From Parvibaculum sp. (lineage in GTDB: Bacteria; Pseudomonadota; Alphaproteobacteria; Parvibaculales; Parvibaculaceae): 64,000 nt of DNA. Of this stretch, positions 50,276 to 64,000 are shown in pieces (the first letter of the stretch is position 1; each line of letters begins with the position of its first letter). The notes under the pieces were generated by a model. That model did no database searches and was not told where the DNA came from. It saw nothing but the letters and a program-made list of their open reading frames with translations. The position numbers were made by a program, and so were the translations under genes. Location: contig JAUSMV010000030.1 in NCBI GenBank assembly GCA_030645235.1, positions 1,422,988-1,486,987 on the forward strand, read 5' to 3'.

Positions 50276-50304
50276 TTGTCAGGCCACCAGCTTTCGACTA
50301 GGTT
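50276..50304 (+). promoter_or_regulatory. Possible tRNA promoter
   Basis: TTGTCA and TAGGTT are 17 bases apart, ending 34 bases before the tRNA start. The -10 match is modest. Confidence 0.35.
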
Positions 50305-50338
50305 GCGGCCTGTCGGGCGGCCTCAGACCCCCGACCCG

Positions 50339-50378
<40 letters not shown>

Positions 50379-51186: not shown

Positions 51187-52176
51187 ATGGCTACAATTCG
51201 AAAACTACGCGGACGATGGCAAGCTCAAGTTCGACGTAAGGGACTTCAGCCTCGCGCCAAGAGCTTCGACAGCAAATCAGACGCCGAGCAATGGGCACGA
51301 AGCCTGGAGGCGGAGGTAGACCGCGGCGGGATGCTTGCTGATACCCGTCTCGCTGAGCGCATGACCGTCCGGGACCTCTTTGATCGCTATCTAAAGGAGG
51401 TCACGCCGTTAAAGCGCAGCGCCAAGGTCGAGACCTACCGCATCAAAGCCATGATGGAACGACCCATCGCCTTCCGGACGTTGGCGATGCTTCGACCAGA
51501 GCACATAGCGAGCTATCGAGACGAACGCCTAAAGGTCATCGGCACCGGCACGATGCTCAAAGAGCTAAACAGTCTCGCCCATGCCATTGAGGTTGGTCGC
51601 CGTGAGTGGGGTGTGAACTTACCTCAAAACCCATGCCGCCTCGTGCGCCGACCCAAAGCGCCTCGCGGTCGAGACCGCAGACTATCCACTGGCGAGGAAT
51701 TGAAGCTCCTAGAGGCGGCCGACGCCGGCCGCAGCCCTTGGATGCGTCCACTCATTGTCCTCGCCCTCGAGACCGCTATGCGTCAGGGCGAGATGCTGTC
51801 CCTCCACTGGAACGACATAGACACTGAGAAGCGGCTTGCCCATCTTGATCTGACGAAGAACGGTGAGAGCCGAGACGTTCCCCTGTCCAGACGCGCGCTA
51901 GGAGCCCTAAAGGAGCTCACTGACATGAAGGGGGATGATCGAGTGGTGCCGACTACCAAAAGCGCCGTCAATCAAGCGTGGCTCCATCTGAGAGTCCGCG
52001 CCGGAAGTCCCGATCTTCGGTTCCATGATCTGCGCCATGAGGCTGTCACTCGGCTTCTGGAGCGCGGTCTCAACGTGATCGAAGTCTCGACCATTTCCGG
52101 ACATAAGGAGCTTCGGATGCTCCAACGATACAGCCATCTGAAAGCCGCTGACCTAGTGAGCCGTTTGGATAGCTAA
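51187..52176 (+). CDS. Tyrosine recombinase (island integrase)
   Basis: This 329-residue phage-type integrase has an N-terminal arm/SAM-like domain (residues about 60-160) and the catalytic domain with Arg199 (ETAMRQGEM), Lys224, His280-x-x-Arg283 (FHDLRHEA), His306 (SGHKELR) and nucleophile Tyr315 (LQRYSHL). All catalytic residues are intact, so it may be active. It lies about 0.8 kb inside the disrupted tRNA-Arg gene, so it most likely moved this element. Confidence 0.95.
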   Translation: MATIRKLRGRWQAQVRRKGLQPRAKSFDSKSDAEQWARSLEAEVDRGGMLADTRLAERMTVRDLFDRYLKEVTPLKRSAKVETYRIKAMMERPIAFRTLAMLRPEHIASYRDERLKVIGTGTMLKELNSLAHAIEVGRREWGVNLPQNPCRLVRRPKAPRGRDRRLSTGEELKLLEAADAGRSPWMRPLIVLALETAMRQGEMLSLHWNDIDTEKRLAHLDLTKNGESRDVPLSRRALGALKELTDMKGDDRVVPTTKSAVNQAWLHLRVRAGSPDLRFHDLRHEAVTRLLERGLNVIEVSTISGHKELRMLQRYSHLKAADLVSRLDS

Positions 52177-52396
52177 ACTTTTTTAGAAAAAATCGTCCTG
52201 CCGATCATCGTCTCGTTATAACTGAATTGTGAGCTCACCCTCCCTCAATCCTTTCAACGGACCTATCCGGGTCCGAAGGAGACTTATTTTGTTAATCGAC
52301 GAAAAGAAGGCGATTCACAACCGCTTACGCTCACTCTGCTCGGCCGCTCGCGTCATTTCCCCTTCGGTTCTCTCTAACGAACGGGAGCTGACGAAT

Positions 52397-52723
52397 ATGA
52401 AATGGTATTCCTACCGCTTTATTTCACCGTTAGAAGCCACGCTCGAATTTGGCAAAGCCTATCGGGCCACCTTAAAGCGCTACGTCCATATTAATATCGA
52501 TATTGATATGGCCGAAACAGTCAACGGTGCCTCCATCTCCACGCCATCTAAACCTGACAGGGTATACAGCCAACTTTGGCTCGCTAGGCAGGAGGCCGAC
52601 CGACGGGGCATTCCCTACGAGGACTACCTTGATTTTTGTTTCGACTTCGCCGCAGCACGTAAACGGAAGATGGCCCCAATGCCGTGCCAGTTGGGTCCGA
52701 ACAAAAAGACTTCCAAAGCCTAG
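52397..52723 (+). CDS. Unknown island protein, first part of a TAG-split gene
   Basis: ATG 52397, with GGGAG upstream, gives 108 residues (starts MKWYSYRFISPLEATLEF, contains YEDYLDFCFDFAAARKRKMA). It ends at TAG 52721-52723. The same frame stays open right after the TAG and runs on through the ORF at 52889-53365, so this looks like the N-terminal third of one protein of about 322 residues. A TGG-to-TAG change (Trp) would explain it. No family recognised. Confidence 0.55.
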   Translation: MKWYSYRFISPLEATLEFGKAYRATLKRYVHINIDIDMAETVNGASISTPSKPDRVYSQLWLARQEADRRGIPYEDYLDFCFDFAAARKRKMAPMPCQLGPNKKTSKA

Positions 52724-52888
52724 GAGGCGAAGTTCGCACAATTTCTAGAGAATAGGCTTGAGCATATCATTCGGACGGCAAAGCTCCCGGATCAATATCG
52801 GTTTGAAGCCTTTTGCGGACTTTCACCGCAGGTTGCCCTTCGAAAACTTGTCCAGAAGTTCATAGAGACAAGCGGACGCCCACAGCAT

Positions 52889-53365
52889 ATGGAAATCGCT
52901 GATTGGTCCGGTGTAAGGCGCATTATGCCCATTCGCTCAATTGCCACTACCGAGAACCGGCACCTGATCAAAAATGCAATTTCCGTTCTACGCCAAGACA
53001 GGTCAACCGGAATTTTACCGAAGGATCCCACACCACTGTCGGCCCTCACGGAGGTGGACTATTGGCCTAGTTGCGCAGGAGTGCCGTTTGCGAAAGCTGA
53101 CACAGCGCCGGAGTGTTTGGCTTGCCCTGTCAAAGGCGCGTGCAAATGGTTGGCGAGCCGCGCTCTCGGAATCTGTGACAAGCCGACAGAGATGGAACCG
53201 GATGCAGCCACAGTAGACCGTGATCGGGCTATGACCCGGGAACGGGTTCAGAAGCATCGCGCAAAGAACAAAATATTGCCGAACACTTTCCGGGCCGTGA
53301 TTGATTACAAAAAATTGCACTCTAAGAGGAACCGGAAGCCTCCTCTCAATCCCGGAGAGATTTAA
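52889..53365 (+). CDS. Unknown island protein, second part, with Cys cluster
   Basis: From the first ATG after the break this is 158 residues, but the coding-like frame extends back to 52724 (EAKFAQFLENRLEHII and on). It carries CAGVPF...ECLACPVKGACKW, that is C-x13-C-x2-C-x5-C. The last three resemble the iron-sulfur loop of EndoIII/MutY-type proteins, though the helix-hairpin-helix part is not evident; a zinc site is equally possible. The C-terminus is very basic. It may be the translated remainder of the split gene. Confidence 0.55.
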   Translation: MEIADWSGVRRIMPIRSIATTENRHLIKNAISVLRQDRSTGILPKDPTPLSALTEVDYWPSCAGVPFAKADTAPECLACPVKGACKWLASRALGICDKPTEMEPDAATVDRDRAMTRERVQKHRAKNKILPNTFRAVIDYKKLHSKRNRKPPLNPGEI

Positions 53366-53373
53366 GCAGACTA

Positions 53374-53441
53374 TGTAACGCTACCTAATTCTTACCCACC
53401 TTCTTTTATTAGAAATAGGTAGAGGATTAGGTAGCGTTACA
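53374..53441. repeat. Large inverted repeat (16-base arms)
   Basis: TGTAACGCTACCTAAT (53374-53389) and ATTAGGTAGCGTTACA (53426-53441) are perfect complements around a 36-base spacer that has further partial pairing. It begins 9 bases after the stop of the preceding ORF. The gap 53366-53874 holds no other convincing gene. Confidence 0.75.
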
Positions 53442-53550
53442 TTCTCATTCGCTTTGAATTCAATACCCTCCGGGATTTGAGGACGAAGTCCTAGAAGTTC
53501 ACAATATGTATGAAGGGTATGCAGAGGGGGTTTTCCGAGTCCGGTCAACG

Positions 53551-53564
53551 CTAGGCTCCTCAAT
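53551..53564. repeat. 14-base direct repeat shared with the integrase upstream region
   Basis: CTAGGCTCCTCAAT occurs here and at 51076-51089; both are followed within one base by TGACA. The two copies flank the integrase and split-gene block. Confidence 0.5.
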
Positions 53565-53874
53565 GTGACAAGAAAATCGTCCGGCACTCAATAGGTTCTC
53601 CGGGATTGATTTATGAGTCACCGGTGACCTTTCTTCAGAAGCTGGCGTTCCCACTCGAACGGTATCATTCCACATCAGTGAGCTTCTGTGAGTCACTGTC
53701 GACATGCCTGAGACGACATCACCCGACAGCTTGATCGCCGGTTCATCGCGCGCCCGTGACGTGCCGCCTAAACATACCTACACGTGCCTAATTGAATTCC
53801 AATCATCGATAGTCAATACGGAAATGGCATCGCCTGCCCCCCAAGTATTACGCCACTCAAAGAAGGAAACCTAC

Positions 53875-54195
53875 ATGCTCACGAAAGACACCAATCCATT
53901 TGCCGAACTTGAGAGGTTCGACGCGGATCAGAATGCTCGCTATCTGTCTGGCGAACATTCAACGCAAAAAATCTCCCCAGAACTTATGAAGCTTGTCTCA
54001 AAGGCCAAGCACAAGCATGTTTTGGCGGCCCGTCGGCGGATAATTAAGTTGATTGCCGATATGATGAAAGTCGGCACTGTGGATGGCCTCACAGAGAATC
54101 GCGCCCTCGCGACTTTGCTTTTGAGGGAAATTGAGAAACGCACCCTTGAAAGAACGGAGAACGGGACGCTTATATTTAGTCATCGACCGTCCTAG
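53875..54195 (+). CDS. Unknown small island protein
   Basis: ATG 53875 with AAGGA about 9 bases upstream gives 106 residues, mostly helical and charged (starts MLTKDTNPFAELERFDADQN, then HVLAARRRIIKLIADMM). An in-frame start at 53704 is less likely: no ribosome site and a low-complexity leader. No family recognised. Confidence 0.5.
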   Translation: MLTKDTNPFAELERFDADQNARYLSGEHSTQKISPELMKLVSKAKHKHVLAARRRIIKLIADMMKVGTVDGLTENRALATLLLREIEKRTLERTENGTLIFSHRPS

Positions 54196-54363: not shown

Positions 54364-54807
54364 TTACGACGTAAGAGCGGGCTTGCGACCTATGTGACTT
54401 CCACGCGCTCGCGCTGCAGCCATGCCGGCCCGCGTGCGCTCCCCAATGATAGCTCGCTCAAACTCTGCCATCGCGGCCATGATGTGAAAGGTCAGCCTTC
54501 CGCCGGACGAACTTGTATCGATGCTCTCGGTCAATGAGCGAAACTCAATGCCACGTTCACCGAGTGAGTTTACCAGCTTGATCAAATCCAACAGCGAGCG
54601 CCCGAGCCGGTCAAGACGCCACACAACGAGCATGCCGCCTCTATCCAAAGCGTCTAGCGCGGCATTGAGACCAGGGCGCTCAAAGTCTGCGCCGGAGATA
54701 CCTTGATCCGTGAATAGCTCAGCACAACCAGCGGAGCTTAGGGCCGTGACTTGCAGATCAAGATTCTGCTCATGCGTCGAGACGCGCCCATATCCAATTT
54801 TTCTCAT
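54364..54807 (-). CDS. Serine recombinase (resolvase/invertase), truncated
   Basis: The catalytic domain is complete: Ser10 in IGYGRVSTHEQNLDLQ, and the conserved WRLDRLGRSLLDLI and FERAIIGERTRAG. The protein ends at 147 residues after HIGRKPALTS because of an in-frame TAA (GAA or another sense codon changed). The DNA-binding part lies beyond it (54250-54363). Without that part the enzyme should not bind its site, so it is probably inactive. Start 54807 is chosen from the family N-terminus; 54828 is possible. Confidence 0.85.
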   Translation of the reverse strand: MRKIGYGRVSTHEQNLDLQVTALSSAGCAELFTDQGISGADFERPGLNAALDALDRGGMLVVWRLDRLGRSLLDLIKLVNSLGERGIEFRSLTESIDTSSSGGRLTFHIMAAMAEFERAIIGERTRAGMAAARARGSHIGRKPALTS

Positions 54808-54867
54808 CACCTGATCGCCACCCAACATACGTGAACAACATCGTCAGTCGTAAGACGACCGCTGGTC

Positions 54868-54896: not shown

Positions 54897-55020
54897 ACGT
54901 TACCTAGAGTTTCGGCGCTGCGTAAGTCATTGATTTCCCTACGGACGACATCGCGGCACATCGATACTTCCCGCACGGACAAAGGGGTTCCCTTTTGTGC
55001 AACCAGCAAGAGGCTACATA

Positions 55021-55701
55021 TTGAACTCGTTCTTCGCGCATCGCACCGTCAGACGACTGGCTATTGCCCTTTCGTTGTCCGCTTCAATTCTGGTGTCAGG
55101 ATGCTCAGATGAGTCCTCTAACGACAACAGCGCCGCCCAAAGACACAACTATGAAAACCCCGATGTGTATGCGTTTATCGACCCGCAGTATGCCTACCTA
55201 GAAGTTGATAGCTTATCCGCACTGTTTTCCATCAACCTCAGAATTGCGAAGATCAATGACGATGAAAGTATCACCGACACCGGAACATTGATGATCACCT
55301 GCAAGAGAAATCGGCCGCAACAAGTATCCCTTTTTCTTCCTCTACCCAACCTGATAGAGTTTAACTATCCGGTGACCGACGATGCCGACCGAAAATACAA
55401 AGCGCTTGTGTCGATACCAGAGGCATCATTTGAGTATCGGAATTTTGTTATTGTTTCGAGCCATGCGGATGAAAGACAGAGCTTAATAACTATCTATGTG
55501 TGGGACATGATCTCCCGCATATCGCAAGCCATCTACGATGGACATACATTGCGGTTTGAAGTTCATCCCAAAGCTGGAAATTCCACCAACCCAGAACTGC
55601 GCGTGTCGGTGATGACATCAGCGCCAAACGAACATACCGCAGAACTTAAATCTAAGGTCGCTCAACTATATCGAGCGTGCGAGCTACTCAGCTATAAATA
55701 G
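55021..55701 (+). CDS. Unknown lipoprotein on the island
   Basis: A TTG start at 55021 (AGAGG 7 bases upstream) gives 226 residues with a signal of lipoprotein type (RRLAIALSLSASILVSGC). The mature part is soluble, rich in beta-strand-like segments, and shows no family I know. A GTG at 54997 in frame is an alternative. It runs towards the convergent defence operon. Confidence 0.6.
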   Translation: MNSFFAHRTVRRLAIALSLSASILVSGCSDESSNDNSAAQRHNYENPDVYAFIDPQYAYLEVDSLSALFSINLRIAKINDDESITDTGTLMITCKRNRPQQVSLFLPLPNLIEFNYPVTDDADRKYKALVSIPEASFEYRNFVIVSSHADERQSLITIYVWDMISRISQAIYDGHTLRFEVHPKAGNSTNPELRVSVMTSAPNEHTAELKSKVAQLYRACELLSYK

Positions 55702-55841: not shown

Positions 55842-57896
55842 TCAGATGATTCCCTCTTGCTTGGCTTTCGCTAAAACCTCAATCAGCACCACACTTTGTC
55901 GCTCGGTAGGTATCTTCGCAGGCATCTGTTCCGCGATCTGAAGGATGCCTATCTCCTTAGGCGTCAGCAGGTGACGATTGGCACCCTCCTGCCGGATAAG
56001 AGACCACTGCGACGGCGACACACCAAGAACTTGACGCTGCACTTCAATTCCATTGTCTATTCTCTGAGTCTGACGGGCAGTCTTCACTTCGCGCCGATTG
56101 TCATCGACGGAAGCGAGGCTGCCCCAGAATCCCTTGGGAAGCAGTTCCGCGATGCTATCGGCTTTATTCAACAAACGAGCCCAACACCCTTCCCGCTTAC
56201 ACCACTCTGAAATGTTGGAAATGCCGTGCGGGGGCTGGATGATGTCATCGTTCACTGCAGTGGCAATGATGATCAGCACCTGCAATAACGCGTCATCAAC
56301 CGCTTGGGCGTCCCAGATACGCTGATAGTCGACGGTAGCTTGTTTACGCTTCGCTATCTCGCCCAACATTGAAAGCGTGTAAGCGACAATATTCGCGCGA
56401 TAACCACCATTATACCATGCTTGATTCGAAACTAGTTTTTCTGTTGCGCGGAACAAAATCCCACGTGCGATCACGCGCCGAAAATATAACTCATTAAAAA
56501 GATCTGATGATTTCTCCCATTCTCTTCCGATCCGGAGAGCGTAGCGCGCGAAGTTCTTCTGGCCGCCAAGATTCACCCATCGGGGATGATCATCGAAGAC
56601 GTTCTCGAACTTCGCTAGGTCGGTCTTCACGAACATCTGCGTCTTGGGATATTCTGCACGGAAGCGCTTCTGCTCGCCCGCAGTCAGTTTCGATTGAGCG
56701 TCTGCATATTGACCGCGAGCTCGCTCGTAGAACCATTTGGTTTCACGCTGCGCACCCTGTTGGGCAGGAGCCCATATGCGGCGCGAGAACTCGGCCATGC
56801 GGACATGGAATGGATGATTCGAGAAGAAGTCAGCCGCGTTCACCTTGTTCTGGGTGTTAGCATATTCCGAGATGCGGGGGACAACCATCTCACTTTGCTC
56901 GCTGTCGATCACCGACAGTTTCATCTGGACGAATATCCCCAATAGATCGATCTTGTCACGACGCTGGGTATGGAATAGTGAGGCTGTCGTCTGGCCGCCG
57001 TTGACGATCTGCAGATCGATTATGCGGACGATCTGAAGTCCGTTACTTGTCATTCGTGTTTCGACATCCTGCGCGGTCGCAGTGATGCCGTTGTTATATG
57101 CAAAAAACATCTTGGGTTCATTGAGGATGGTTGAACGAATACCTTTGTTTACCTGCGCACGGGCTTGGAGGAAGGTCCGCACATTCTGCTCCAATAAACG
57201 GGCACTGTATTTATCGTAAAGCGCCGCAAGAATCGAAGCCGGCATAACCATCAAATAAGACTGATAGGAATCTGAACCAAGATTAGCCGATAGGCAGTTG
57301 ATGCCGTCCCCGAACAGTTCCACGAAATCAATATTGAGAGGCTCTTTGTGCCCGCGCGAGCTATGCTGACGCTGGAAACGCGTCATGTCCCAGATGTGAT
57401 AAGTTGAACGAATACCGCCAACTTCCCCATCAGGGAATGACTGGAACCGATCGCTCAGCACGCGCTCAGAGGTCAAGTAGAAATTGACTTGTCGGAGCGA
57501 CGTCCGCCGATCGGCGATCTGTTGCACAAGGCCGTATTCCGGAGTGGTCACGTCCGGTTCTAGGGAGCCTTCCAAACTTGCTTCAAAGAAGTTTGCCACC
57601 CGCTTGAAGATCGATTCGACATCCGTCCGAGTCAGGGTTTCAAGCTCCCGGCGACAGTCAAAGTCGGCAACGAAAATATCAACGACGCTTTCGTCATTGA
57701 ACCAGTAGCCATCCACTCGCATCCCCTTTTGAGCGCGGTAGTGGCAATGCTCAAATCCATCGACAAAGCCGGTCTCGATCAGTTCATTGGAAACGACGTC
57801 CATGAACGCCTCAAGCTGATAGGTCCGTTCCGCTTCCGCTCCGGCCAACATTTCCTGACGAAAATCATGGAAGAACTCTTCAACCGTTTGTTCCAT
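55842..57896 (-). CDS. AIPR-family (abortive infection) protein, last gene of the defence operon
   Basis: This 684-residue protein is of the AIPR family (PF10592). It shows the family's core motifs FFAYNNGITATAQ and DLQIVNGGQTTASLF, and ISEYANTQNKVNAADF after them. AIPR proteins occur in abortive-infection and modification-linked systems; their activity is not well known. ATG 57896 has GGAGAGG just upstream, and it overlaps the end of the DUF4420 gene by 17 bases. It would be the fifth component of an Mza-type set. Confidence 0.92.
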   Translation of the reverse strand: MEQTVEEFFHDFRQEMLAGAEAERTYQLEAFMDVVSNELIETGFVDGFEHCHYRAQKGMRVDGYWFNDESVVDIFVADFDCRRELETLTRTDVESIFKRVANFFEASLEGSLEPDVTTPEYGLVQQIADRRTSLRQVNFYLTSERVLSDRFQSFPDGEVGGIRSTYHIWDMTRFQRQHSSRGHKEPLNIDFVELFGDGINCLSANLGSDSYQSYLMVMPASILAALYDKYSARLLEQNVRTFLQARAQVNKGIRSTILNEPKMFFAYNNGITATAQDVETRMTSNGLQIVRIIDLQIVNGGQTTASLFHTQRRDKIDLLGIFVQMKLSVIDSEQSEMVVPRISEYANTQNKVNAADFFSNHPFHVRMAEFSRRIWAPAQQGAQRETKWFYERARGQYADAQSKLTAGEQKRFRAEYPKTQMFVKTDLAKFENVFDDHPRWVNLGGQKNFARYALRIGREWEKSSDLFNELYFRRVIARGILFRATEKLVSNQAWYNGGYRANIVAYTLSMLGEIAKRKQATVDYQRIWDAQAVDDALLQVLIIIATAVNDDIIQPPHGISNISEWCKREGCWARLLNKADSIAELLPKGFWGSLASVDDNRREVKTARQTQRIDNGIEVQRQVLGVSPSQWSLIRQEGANRHLLTPKEIGILQIAEQMPAKIPTERQSVVLIEVLAKAKQEGII

Positions 57897-58854
57897 CGGC
57901 CTCTCCAAAAACCGCATCCCCGTTACAGTTGTAAGGGGTGAGACTTTCCAACTTCACGTCATAGCCAACACGCCCGATGCCTTCAGGTAATTGCGACCTT
58001 ATCAACCGGGGGAAACCGTCGTTGACCCGACAAGTTCGGATTTCACTGACTACGAACGACGGCTGGTCATACTCCGGAATAGGCGCATATGAATAGGCCA
58101 CCAGCTTGCGGTCGAACGCTTCGACGGCCTGCGCATCGTCAAGAGCTCTCTGCACTTCGAGAACGATTTGGTTCAAGGAACGGGCAACCTGTGAATCCGG
58201 AAGATCACTCAAACGGTAAATACGAAGAAAAAGTCTATCATTGAGAGATTCGAGTTGATCTTCGGATGATATGCGGACTGTGCTCCGTTCGGCTCCCGAT
58301 AAAGATTTCACCTCAACGGCCGTATTCCCAAAAATGAAGTCCTGATGCGATTTTTCGGGACCCATCCAAGAATCAACGGCGGATGGTGCCCGGCGACGCC
58401 CAAGTAACTCAAGCAGAAAGACTAATTCAGCAAACAGCCCCCGAACCTCTTCGGCGGACAGATGTTGGCTGCGACCGGACATGAAGGTCTTCCATCGCTT
58501 CAAGTGTGCAAGCGCAATCGCCAGCGAAACAGTGGAGTTCGCGGAGTGTTCGAGCGATCCTGTTAGAGTCCGGCACAATCCCTCGAAGAGGTCACGATCA
58601 GCCTGCTTCTCGAGCGTCAGCACAAGACGTTGCTGACCGATCTCAGTTCTGAGATCGACCCCAATGCCATTGATCCGGACAGTGTTCTTCCTGAACTCAG
58701 CGGCATGGTCCCCTTCAAGCTCGATAATGAAAAGACATGCACCGGAAACATCCCGCCCCCAGTAACAGGGGGTGACTGTTGCCCCAGCAACGCGCTTTAC
58801 ATTATAGCTAGCGTCGGGAATGCCGATGTCATCCCAGGTGGATTGCTCAGGCAT
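57880..58854 (-). CDS. PD-(D/E)XK motif protein (DUF4420)
   Basis: This 324-residue protein matches the DUF4420 / PD-(D/E)XK motif family. The nuclease-like core is Asp172 in HQDFIFGN, then Glu181-x-Lys183 in AVEVKS, with a helix Glu (GLFAELVFL) before it. The catalytic residues are intact, so DNA cleavage is plausible but not proven. ATG 58854 is chosen (GAAGAGG 6 bases upstream), overlapping the Z1 gene by 8 bases. Confidence 0.9.
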   Translation of the reverse strand: MPEQSTWDDIGIPDASYNVKRVAGATVTPCYWGRDVSGACLFIIELEGDHAAEFRKNTVRINGIGVDLRTEIGQQRLVLTLEKQADRDLFEGLCRTLTGSLEHSANSTVSLAIALAHLKRWKTFMSGRSQHLSAEEVRGLFAELVFLLELLGRRRAPSAVDSWMGPEKSHQDFIFGNTAVEVKSLSGAERSTVRISSEDQLESLNDRLFLRIYRLSDLPDSQVARSLNQIVLEVQRALDDAQAVEAFDRKLVAYSYAPIPEYDQPSFVVSEIRTCRVNDGFPRLIRSQLPEGIGRVGYDVKLESLTPYNCNGDAVFGEADGTNG

Positions 58855-61516
58855 CGTAATCCTCTTCATCGTCCGGGTCGTCGGGTGTTCCCTGCATCCG
58901 CTCCAACCACACTAGGTTTGCCACAACTTCGATTTCGGTGTCGTAGTGTCCGGGTGGAAAGCTGACGCCGAAGGCGGCAATCGACCCCCTCACACGAGTT
59001 CCATCGCCCGGCTGCAAGCTGTGGATCATGAGAAGAGGCTTCTTTCTGATTTCCCTGTAGTGTGTGTCTGATGGTGCAACCAGCTTCGGGCCGGAAGCTG
59101 CCAGTTTTTCAGCTTCTGCTTCTGCCGACCTTTGTTCTTCGTCGGTAACACCGAGGCCGAGCTTTTCATCACCACGGGAAGCGACGCGATCCTTGTTCAA
59201 CTGCCAGGCCGCTCCGGAAAGCCGTTCGACCGCGCGGACCTGATCATTGAGGATGAAGGGTTTGTCATCGCCGCCGCGTGGAGAGATCAGCAACACGTCG
59301 CCGACCGGGTGTTGATCCGCCAGCGTCCGCAGATAGGCGATGATGTCGGCCTTCCGGTCGGTGAAATCACTATGTGTCTGAAACTTCAGGAGGAAGTCCT
59401 CAAGCCGCTCGACTGGAACATCGCGAAAGATGAAGCCCTTGGTGGTCGGACCGATTTTGTTACCGCCGAAGCCATCCCTCCACGTTCTCTCTATCAGCGC
59501 GAAATTGCTGTCGTTCACCTCCCGATCAGTAGACAGAATATAGCTTTCCAGCATCCGTCCACTAAAGTTCTGCCGGAATGTTACTTTTTCGCCTGCCCGC
59601 ATTTTGTTTCTGGCAGTGATCAGAAGGCTGTCAGGATGGGCCATGACATAAAGGCCGAACTGCCTCGGACTGAGACCGTCCCGACGCATCCGCTTGACCT
59701 GTTGCGTCAGTTCCTCAGCAGCATTGGCAATGTGCGCATACCAATTGATCGAATCCTTCGAGAGATAAACGCGGCAAAGGTCCTCGAAATTTGGACGATA
59801 CCCAAACCAGCGGCCCATCTGCATGAGCGTGTCATACATGCGAGTATTCCTATACATGTAGCTCACGGTCAGCCCCTCTATGGTCAGACCACGCGACAGA
59901 CTCAGCCCCCCAATCGCGATTGCTGTAAGGCCCACGCCCTCCTTCTCATATTTCGGATAGTCGAGCGTTTCGTCACTCTTGCTGTTGATGACATAGATGT
60001 GAAGATGCTCGAAAACATCGTTCAGCGCCGCTTTCACTTGCGCCCATGAAAATCCAGAACCGCTGAACCTAGAATCATAGGCTTCCCGCATATCCTTCAT
60101 GTAAGCATTTCGGCAAGAGATCGATTCCGGCATCATATAGTTTGCTTTAACTGCCTCCCTGATCTTCTTCTCTCGGAGACTTATGAAATCACGCACAGCC
60201 TTCTGAACCGCAACAAAACGCGAAACGTTGATCATCATTGAGCAATGTTTTTTCTGCTGTCCGCGAAGGTTGCGAATAGCGCGTGCAACGATAAACTCGT
60301 TTAAAGCTCGATAGAGACTGAGTGGCAGCTCCGGCACAATGTAGTCGCGCTTGTGGGCGTAGGGGATCAGGTCCTCGCAATCGTCGATAGGTTTGACGAT
60401 GGACGGGCTTGTGTCTTCATTCAAAAACACTTTCTCCGCGCCGAAGTATGTTGTCGGCGCATCTAGACAATAGATGAAGTCGCGCGGGAAGAGTTCATCC
60501 CTGACATCAGCATCATAAGCGTCTGGGTTAATGAAAATGTTGGCAAAAGGCGTTGCGGTATAACCGACATAACAGGACTTTGCGAACAGGCTGAGAATCC
60601 GACGGATCATCGCGTTCGTTCGAGTTGGGTCAAGGTCCTCTTTGTTAGTGTTGATCGACGCATTGTCAGCCTCGTCGTCGATCATGAGCATCGGCACATC
60701 AGAGATGCGCCCGTCACCGGAGGCATTGAGCTCCTTAAGCCATTTGTGAAGTGCGGTTAACGTCGTGACGTTCTTCTTGATGACGAGGATGATCGGTTTG
60801 CTGAAGTCATTGATTTTCCAACCGCTCTTTTCAGCCGTCTTTTTGTTGAAATCCTCGTTTATGTTCGTGAGCGTGGCGGGATGAGGGTAACCCGGCACCA
60901 TCCCCACTCCGATATTCCGGCGGTCCTCCGGGTCGCTTTTCCGACCTATAAACGCTTCATCTATGCGTTCCTGCGTCTGTTTGCGCAGATTGTTATGAAT
61001 GCCCGCGATGACGATGATGAACTTGTAGCCCGCGTCGGCCGCGCGTGAAATCAGTCCTGTATAATTCGCGGTCTTGCCGGATTGAACATGGCCGATGACC
61101 AGCCCCCTCCGGTTCCACGTGGTCCCTTCACTCATCGGATCCTGAAGGTGACTTAGTATCCGGCTTGTGACGTCGCTGAGGGACTGGACCATCTGAGGGG
61201 GCCATCCGTCCTGTCGCAAAAACTCCTCGTAAGCGTTGGAATAGGACCAGTATATATCGCCCCTCTTGCGGACCCATTGATCGTCATGCTTGGCGGCGAC
61301 GTCAACAAGGGAAACACCCGCACCCATACGCGTCACAACCGAAATCATAGCTTCACTGGTGATGTTCCGGAGGTCACCATCATAGTCGAACAGGGCCGCG
61401 AGTTTTCGAACCTTCTCCTCAACCTGCTCTAGCGTCGGGATATCAGGCAGAAGGGCCAGTGCCGAAATCAGCGCATTGGTGAGGTTCTTCTCCGGAAAAT
61501 TAGGTTCTGCCATCAT
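58847..61516 (-). CDS. Z1-domain superfamily-II ATPase
   Basis: The 889-residue product is of the Z1 family (PF10593), a helicase-like ATPase found in modification-linked defence. Walker A GHVQSGKT is at 142-149, the DEAD-like motif IDDEAD at 279-284, YTATPFANI at about 319, and the arginine-finger motif QMGRWFGYR at 566-574. All are intact. It may move along or remodel DNA for the partner nuclease. Its start overlaps the upstream ATPase stop (ATGA). Confidence 0.95.
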   Translation of the reverse strand: MMAEPNFPEKNLTNALISALALLPDIPTLEQVEEKVRKLAALFDYDGDLRNITSEAMISVVTRMGAGVSLVDVAAKHDDQWVRKRGDIYWSYSNAYEEFLRQDGWPPQMVQSLSDVTSRILSHLQDPMSEGTTWNRRGLVIGHVQSGKTANYTGLISRAADAGYKFIIVIAGIHNNLRKQTQERIDEAFIGRKSDPEDRRNIGVGMVPGYPHPATLTNINEDFNKKTAEKSGWKINDFSKPIILVIKKNVTTLTALHKWLKELNASGDGRISDVPMLMIDDEADNASINTNKEDLDPTRTNAMIRRILSLFAKSCYVGYTATPFANIFINPDAYDADVRDELFPRDFIYCLDAPTTYFGAEKVFLNEDTSPSIVKPIDDCEDLIPYAHKRDYIVPELPLSLYRALNEFIVARAIRNLRGQQKKHCSMMINVSRFVAVQKAVRDFISLREKKIREAVKANYMMPESISCRNAYMKDMREAYDSRFSGSGFSWAQVKAALNDVFEHLHIYVINSKSDETLDYPKYEKEGVGLTAIAIGGLSLSRGLTIEGLTVSYMYRNTRMYDTLMQMGRWFGYRPNFEDLCRVYLSKDSINWYAHIANAAEELTQQVKRMRRDGLSPRQFGLYVMAHPDSLLITARNKMRAGEKVTFRQNFSGRMLESYILSTDREVNDSNFALIERTWRDGFGGNKIGPTTKGFIFRDVPVERLEDFLLKFQTHSDFTDRKADIIAYLRTLADQHPVGDVLLISPRGGDDKPFILNDQVRAVERLSGAAWQLNKDRVASRGDEKLGLGVTDEEQRSAEAEAEKLAASGPKLVAPSDTHYREIRKKPLLMIHSLQPGDGTRVRGSIAAFGVSFPPGHYDTEIEVVANLVWLERMQGTPDDPDDEEDYDA

Positions 61517-62982
61517 GCAAATGTCTCTCTTGTAAATCGTTCGGCTGTATCCATCTGCCCATCAAATAAGCGGGTAGAACGCACAATCTGCATAAACGCC
61601 TGTGGGTCACCGGGGCCATCGCCAAAGAGCGCGGAACGCAAACCCTTCAGCCGCTCGATAATTTCGACTTCATCTGTTGGGGCTTGGCTGACCTCTCTCG
61701 GATGAGTGGAATAGTCGGAATAGATCATCTCAACTGGGAGCGAGGCAGCTATTGAGTCCAGCAGCATATGAAGACTGGCTAGGTCGTCCGTCGGCAACCT
61801 CGCCTCCACTGACTGTATCAACGGGTGTTGCAAATTAATGGCGTATCTGATGCCGCCATGATCGACATACCGTTCCCAGACCGGAGCCTGCGTCTCCTGA
61901 AAGAGCTTCTGGCCACGACCACGGTAAACGACGACGCTGCGCGCGGTGATCTTCTGGATGATCTGGCGAAGACGCTCACGCACCGCACGAGGTGGACGCG
62001 CACGGGATTTCTTGATGTCGATAGTCCAAGCTTCATCCAAGCTGTTAGGGAAATCGATCTGAACCCTAGCGAGCTTGGTGGCTTCACCCTTCGGCACAAG
62101 CCGGAACCAGTCGCCCCAAGCCATGAGCCGACCGTTACGATAGATGTAAGCCCCCTGATTGGAGATAAAATCGCTGCGGTCTTGGTAGAAATCATATTCC
62201 GATGCGGATAGACGGCTGTGATGTGGAAGGATGTAGGGCTGCATCACCACTGCCTCGTCACCGACCCAGACAGTCTCTTCCGGGAGCATCTGGGTAGCAA
62301 AATTCTTACGGCAGAAAGGATCGAAGGCCATCACGGCATGTCCGTTGATCCGAATTGAGATTTTCTTCCGACCCTTAATCTCCCCAGACAGGAAGCGGTG
62401 AAAAACCAACGAGAGGTGGCGTTCGACAAAACTCAGCTTCTCGTTGACGATCTCATCGCGTTTCTGGCCGGTCTCACCCTCGGAGAGCCGATCAAGGTCG
62501 CGCCAGATAACGATTGTGCCGGTTTCTCCGAAAGTGTCGACGAATGGCTGGTCCGCAATTTCGTTCGACTCAAGAACAGAGACATACCAGTCGTCCAGCA
62601 GTGCCAAATTCCATTCCGCTCCACATCGACTTCCATTCTGACTGCTAATGACGGTTAGTCGACGGCAATGAGAGAAAGAGGCCGTTTTCAGGCCGAGACC
62701 GAATCGACCTAAGTCATTAAGGCTACGTTTCTTCCGAGGGTCGGTCGAACCGTGACGCATAGCGGCAATCACTTCGCCTTCGTTCATACCGTGTCCGTTG
62801 TCGGCGATCACGAGAGTCGGAGCACCCCGACTGACATCACAGAATATCTGTATGTCAGTCGCATCAGCGGAAATGCTGTTGTCGATCAAGTCGGCGATGG
62901 CGGTTTCGAGCGAATAGCCGAGATCTCGCAGGGACGCAGTGAGGCTTGCCGCACTGGGCGGTAGATAATGGGGCCGTGCCAT
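61513..62982 (-). CDS. GHKL ATPase (MutL/Hsp90/MORC-like)
   Basis: This 489-residue protein has an N-terminal GHKL ATPase: Glu26 and Asn35 in LETAIADLIDNS, DNGHGM at 61-66, and the lid GRFGLGLKTAS at 92-102. The mid region resembles the S5-like transducer of MutL/MORC proteins. Such ATPases linked to DNA methylases were proposed as ancestors of MORC proteins. ATG 62982 overlaps the methylase stop by one base (TGATG); a GTG at 62985 is an alternative. Confidence 0.93.
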   Translation of the reverse strand: MARPHYLPPSAASLTASLRDLGYSLETAIADLIDNSISADATDIQIFCDVSRGAPTLVIADNGHGMNEGEVIAAMRHGSTDPRKKRSLNDLGRFGLGLKTASFSHCRRLTVISSQNGSRCGAEWNLALLDDWYVSVLESNEIADQPFVDTFGETGTIVIWRDLDRLSEGETGQKRDEIVNEKLSFVERHLSLVFHRFLSGEIKGRKKISIRINGHAVMAFDPFCRKNFATQMLPEETVWVGDEAVVMQPYILPHHSRLSASEYDFYQDRSDFISNQGAYIYRNGRLMAWGDWFRLVPKGEATKLARVQIDFPNSLDEAWTIDIKKSRARPPRAVRERLRQIIQKITARSVVVYRGRGQKLFQETQAPVWERYVDHGGIRYAINLQHPLIQSVEARLPTDDLASLHMLLDSIAASLPVEMIYSDYSTHPREVSQAPTDEVEIIERLKGLRSALFGDGPGDPQAFMQIVRSTRLFDGQMDTAERFTRETFA

Positions 62983-64000
62983 CACCTGCCATCCCGAATA
63001 GAGTCGAGAACCTCTGCCACTATCTCAGCGATCTGCCTCGCGAGTTGGGGTGGAACGGCATTTCCAACTTGGTGATACTGCGCCGTGCGTGGTCCCGCAA
63101 AAAAATAATTATCCGGAAAAGTTTGTAAACGCGCCGCCTCGCGGACGGTAAGGCTTCTGCATTGCGCCGGATCATAATGAATGAAGTAGTGACCATCCTT
63201 TGAAATATGTGACGTGATTGTCGTCGACACACGATCCGGCAATTGAACACGAAAGCGATCCGAGAACATTTTGCCAATACGTCCTTTCTCAACGTTCTGA
63301 TGATCAGGCAGAAGGCTTTCCGGGAAATCGACCAGTTTGGGACTCCGCCTAGTCACCTCAGCAAAAGTCGCAGCATAGAAATAGCGACGCAGGTCAGATG
63401 CCATATGACCACGCGTTTCATGTGCTGTAAGGACTGATAGCCGTGCATCATAAAGGGAGCGAAGCACTTCATGATTTGGTTGCCGCATCTTGTAGTGTTT
63501 AGACGAACTAAATCGTGGCGAGCATAGTTCGTCGAGCTTATCGACGGTAAGCTCCTGCGCTACCTGACCCGCATAAATTGCACCATTTAGCTGGCGTCGA
63601 ATACTCATGCTGGAGATTTTCTTGATGGCATCCAGCCAAGCGTCTCGACTATCGGCCTCTTTTGAAAGGCCACTGCGTATTGCCGGGAGGGAGCTGATCG
63701 TGTCACGAACAGTCGGAGCAGCCATACTTCTGAGTGTGGCGGGTCGAACCTTCAAATCGCTGCGAATTCCCACAATAAACATTCTGTGTCGAGCCTGAGG
63801 GATGCCATGAGCCTCCGCACGCACCAGAAAGAGCCGGGGATCGGCTTCACGGTCGACCATTTCCTCTTCGGTGAGAGAATAAAGTCTATAAGTGAGACCG
63901 GTCGGCGCGTTAGGAATGGCAGACGCAGGTTGTTGCAGGTCGCGCACAATGCGATTGATGGTGGACTTGCCCTTGATAGTAGCTGACAGCAGCCCCTTCA
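62982..64000 (-). CDS. DNA (cytosine-5) methyltransferase, C-terminal part
   Basis: The frame is open to the right edge, so the gene starts outside the window; about 339 residues are visible. The C-terminal C5-methylase motifs are clear: PQARHRMFIVGIR (motif VIII), SLTVREAARLQTFPDNYFF (motif IX) and YHQVGNAVPPQLARQI (motif X). The region between VIII and IX is the target-recognition part. Motifs I, IV (PCQ) and VI lie outside. It probably methylates self DNA for the defence operon; its target sequence is unknown. Confidence 0.93.
   Translation of the reverse strand, partial: KGLLSATIKGKSTINRIVRDLQQPASAIPNAPTGLTYRLYSLTEEEMVDREADPRLFLVRAEAHGIPQARHRMFIVGIRSDLKVRPATLRSMAAPTVRDTISSLPAIRSGLSKEADSRDAWLDAIKKISSMSIRRQLNGAIYAGQVAQELTVDKLDELCSPRFSSSKHYKMRQPNHEVLRSLYDARLSVLTAHETRGHMASDLRRYFYAATFAEVTRRSPKLVDFPESLLPDHQNVEKGRIGKMFSDRFRVQLPDRVSTTITSHISKDGHYFIHYDPAQCRSLTVREAARLQTFPDNYFFAGPRTAQYHQVGNAVPPQLARQIAEIVAEVLDSIRDGR

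Follow-up and report, generated by a model that had tools for sequence, protein, structure and literature searches.

The 64,000-nucleotide stretch of Parvibaculum sp. DNA analyzed here (the window; contig JAUSMV010000030.1) carries at its right-hand end five genes encoding, in order, a C5-cytosine DNA methylase, a GHKL-S5 ATPase, an MzaC homolog, a DUF4420 nuclease and an AIPR-family protein (Table 1). The original prediction, made from the letters of the window, had described an overlapping five-gene operon with intact catalytic motifs, and both observations were confirmed: all five frames are open, the family-invariant catalytic residues are retained, and a 4-nt overlap joins the methylase gene to the start of the GHKL gene. 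The profile searches that it had proposed for AIPR and DUF4420 both gave matches. The missing methylase N terminus was found to the right of the window, where the full 540-aa open reading frame (ORF) extends to 64604 on the window scale and includes the PCQ motif. The five overlapping genes, on a mobile island beside a tRNA gene, are most likely a multipart system for DNA restriction, and systems of this kind have already been predicted in the literature.

The operon had been labeled Mza-like. Mza, reportedly described by Gao et al. in 2020, is said to consist of mzaABCDE. Homologs of MzaB, MzaC, MzaD and MzaE are adjacent and in the same order in the window operon, as indicated by PADLOC (MzaC, 1.5e-128; others in Table 1), and this part of the label stood. 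However, Mza operons are headed by MzaA, a sigma-70 family protein, whereas the window operon is headed by the C5 methylase and lacks MzaA. The PADLOC MzaA model matched two places in the genome, both on contig C55 and neither at the operon, and the stronger match lay inside an RpoD-like sigma factor. The MzaB to MzaE homologs also fell far below the NCBIfam equivalog cutoffs (309.9/850, 516/1500, 125/420 and 335.5/1050 bits, respectively). These cutoffs are strict, since a control locus on a Thalassospira plasmid passed for MzaE (1057.4/1050) but fell short for MzaB (823.8/850) and MzaA (487/800). The earlier interpretation as a whole was supported in part.

The original prediction had also pointed to MutL/MORC-linked restriction operons. 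In the parts of Iyer et al. (2008; PMC2292703) covered, the third type of MORC/paraMORC operon shares with the window operon an SF2 helicase with the motif DThhQXuRhFG, a GHKL-S5 ATPase, a restriction endonuclease-fold protein with an E-D-ExK signature and, frequently, a cytosine methylase; a figure legend there calls AIPR common in restriction-modification operons. In the window DUF4420 protein, the signature corresponds to E148, D177, E186 and K188, which, like Q205, occur in 101/101 aligned rows. Vsr is frequent but not universal in those operons and is absent from the window operon. Type II of the putative defense system of Miller et al. (2022; PMC9523054, section on the system) combines AIPR with an associated MORC-family protein, both present in the window operon, a likeness that rests on gene content and leaves subtypes II-A and II-B undivided. 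"DNA repair endonucleases" are named there for type I, and that section has no mention of Vsr by name, methylase exchange or a tRNA island. The operon is a new member of a known, putative kind of system. A further island among the closest known systems differs in having an EcoRII-like nuclease and a methylase with a fused HTH domain, and the passage on it names neither GHKL nor AIPR. The window methylase was matched best in PADLOC by DrmMII of DISARM (5.1e-87) and scored above the NCBIfam cutoff for the dcm superfamily; no DrmA, DrmB or DrmC model was among the PADLOC matches of the other four operon proteins.

Against solved structures, the GHKL protein matched MutL (3.2e-5) and MORC4/MORC2 (4-5e-5) about equally. 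Its residues 278 to 288, GAYIYRNGRLM, form a candidate MORC-type motif. The S5 domain pattern of the Iyer et al. MORC operons, GhXhhpXXRhl, was found in 74/98 proteins in its strict form and in 94/98 when Met was allowed at the end, with 4/673 control ORFs matching either way; the window motif, with Met at its last position, does not match the strict pattern and fits the relaxed one.

The claim of a tRNA-linked island was also borne out. The window itself contains no tRNA genes, but tRNA-Arg(CCG) lies just to its right at 65244-65320, and a 103-bp repeat that starts 63 bp upstream of this gene and takes in its 5' half, through the anticodon loop, recurs exactly at the left end of the island. 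Measured from where the left copy ends to where the right copy ends, the island spans 14,905 bp, with a G+C content of 53.0% compared with 57.2% and 58.5% in the left and right flanks. It contains an integrase, a resolvase, four ORFs of at least 150 aa with no Pfam match, and the operon. When the window flanks were joined, the resulting sequence matched an intact tRNA-Arg, with the alignment spanning the junction, at 5/5 relative loci tested (85-95% identity; four genomes, as L136 and L144 are one place). A stronger sign, since tRNA genes are conserved anyway, is the sibling genome G757, where the left-hand gene has a homolog (67% identical at the protein level) and an intact tRNA-Arg lies about 100 bp beyond it. 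From the exact repeat and the uninterrupted junctions, we infer that insertion took place in the 5' half of tRNA-Arg and that the island carries a duplicate of this half together with the sequence upstream. Given the extent of the repeat, the island lies 5' of the tRNA as restored. To our knowledge, most tRNA islands use the tRNA 3' end.

Table 1. Features of the island and its operon (window coordinates)
Feature	Position	Strand	Evidence
C5-cytosine DNA methylase (C-terminal 338 aa inside window)	62982..64000	-	Pfam DNA_methylase
GHKL-S5 ATPase, MORC/MutL type, MzaB homolog	61513..62985	-	HATPase_c_3 2.2e-31; PADLOC MzaB 4.1e-81
Operon gene between GHKL ATPase and DUF4420 genes	58847..61516	-	
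DUF4420 PD-(D/E)XK nuclease, MzaD homolog	57880..58869	-	DUF4420 1.7e-62; PADLOC MzaD 1.3e-19
AIPR-family protein, MzaE homolog	55842..57917	-	AIPR 7.5e-99, AIPR_N 9.7e-39; PADLOC MzaE 3.8e-81
Left attachment repeat, 103 bp	50276..50378	+	exact match to 65181-65283 outside window
Tyrosine (phage-type) integrase of island	51187..52176	+	Phage_integrase 1.5e-29
Serine resolvase/invertase-like recombinase, island cargo	54364..54828	-	Resolvase 9.9e-45
Three ORFs (164, 158, 163 aa) between integrase and operon	52229-54195		no Pfam match
234-aa ORF, lipoprotein-like signal (VSGC), convergent with AIPR gene	54997-55701		no Pfam match

Among sigma-led relatives, the ankyrin-sigma70 (MzaA-type) protein of one locus (L008:4325-6760), which was scanned, has a C-terminal GcrA domain (Pfam, 1.8e-17). 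GcrA is a family of cell cycle regulators that act with sigma-70 at methylated DNA, and the protein is a sigma factor fused to a possible methylation reader within a defense operon. Two sigma-led Mza loci lie on plasmids of Thalassospira (L150:13670-16090) and Neorhizobium (L151:943-3863). Both adjoin a separately annotated restriction endonuclease and cytosine methylase, and one also Vsr, as if a whole restriction-modification unit had docked to Mza.

The methylase was found in 62/62 complete loci, its position and strand differ between loci, and its tree is discordant with that of the core genes. This comparison of relatives suggests that the DNA-marking part is a swappable cassette. Exchange of the methylase had no mention in the titles and abstract openings searched, nor in the covered parts of PMC9523054 and PMC2292703. 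The vsr gene that the original prediction had suggested looking for was not found within 6 kb, nor in the genome with profile PF03852, which matched in 5/14 control genomes; with an assembly of 86 contigs, this absence is not absolute. We tentatively propose, at a probability of about 0.3, that the B-C-D-E core acts as a general engine for restriction with no hard-wired recognition sequence, into which C5 methylase/Vsr cassettes are plugged, the methylase serving as both target reader and self-marker, with the same cassettes in methylase-led and sigma-led (Mza) cores.

It is also possible, though doubtful, that the core is a methylation-independent defense and that the methylase with Vsr is a separate neighbor, either an orphan that gives protection from other restriction systems or one half of a second restriction-modification unit. 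The variable placement and discordant tree of the methylase would fit this, as would the additional endonuclease annotated beside it in the two plasmid loci and the lack of a methylase among the MzaA to MzaE models met in PADLOC and NCBIfam. Against this, the methylase is present in every complete locus and overlaps the GHKL gene in the window, no restriction enzyme was recognized among the six further island ORFs, and the section of Miller et al. (PMC9523054) independently counts the methylase among three core genes.

The AIPR protein has 31 invariant columns across 71 rows, many of them polar, and these make an active or ligand-binding site probable. This would suit abortive infection, in which AIPR, predicted to be a HEPN RNase, would be the toxin and the remaining genes its sensor. 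We consider this improbable: of three R-x4-6-H instances in the window protein none is conserved, the best-conserved arginine, R180, being accompanied by H185 in 3% of 95 rows, and DUF4420 provides a separate nuclease whose signature is complete. Within its nine-row clade, only the window locus lacks Vsr, which might mark the onset of degeneration in a decaying remnant. Such decay seems very unlikely given the open frames with their catalytic residues, the methylase and GHKL genes that now meet, the likewise absent Vsr in 8/62 other complete loci, and the fragmented assembly.

The proposed general engine with exchangeable methylase cassettes would resemble BREX type I, as covered in part of PMC11842806, in its proposed logic only, one methylase being needed for marking and defense; homology is not claimed. 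If the proposal is correct, the window locus has dropped Vsr and would carry a cassette without its repair partner.
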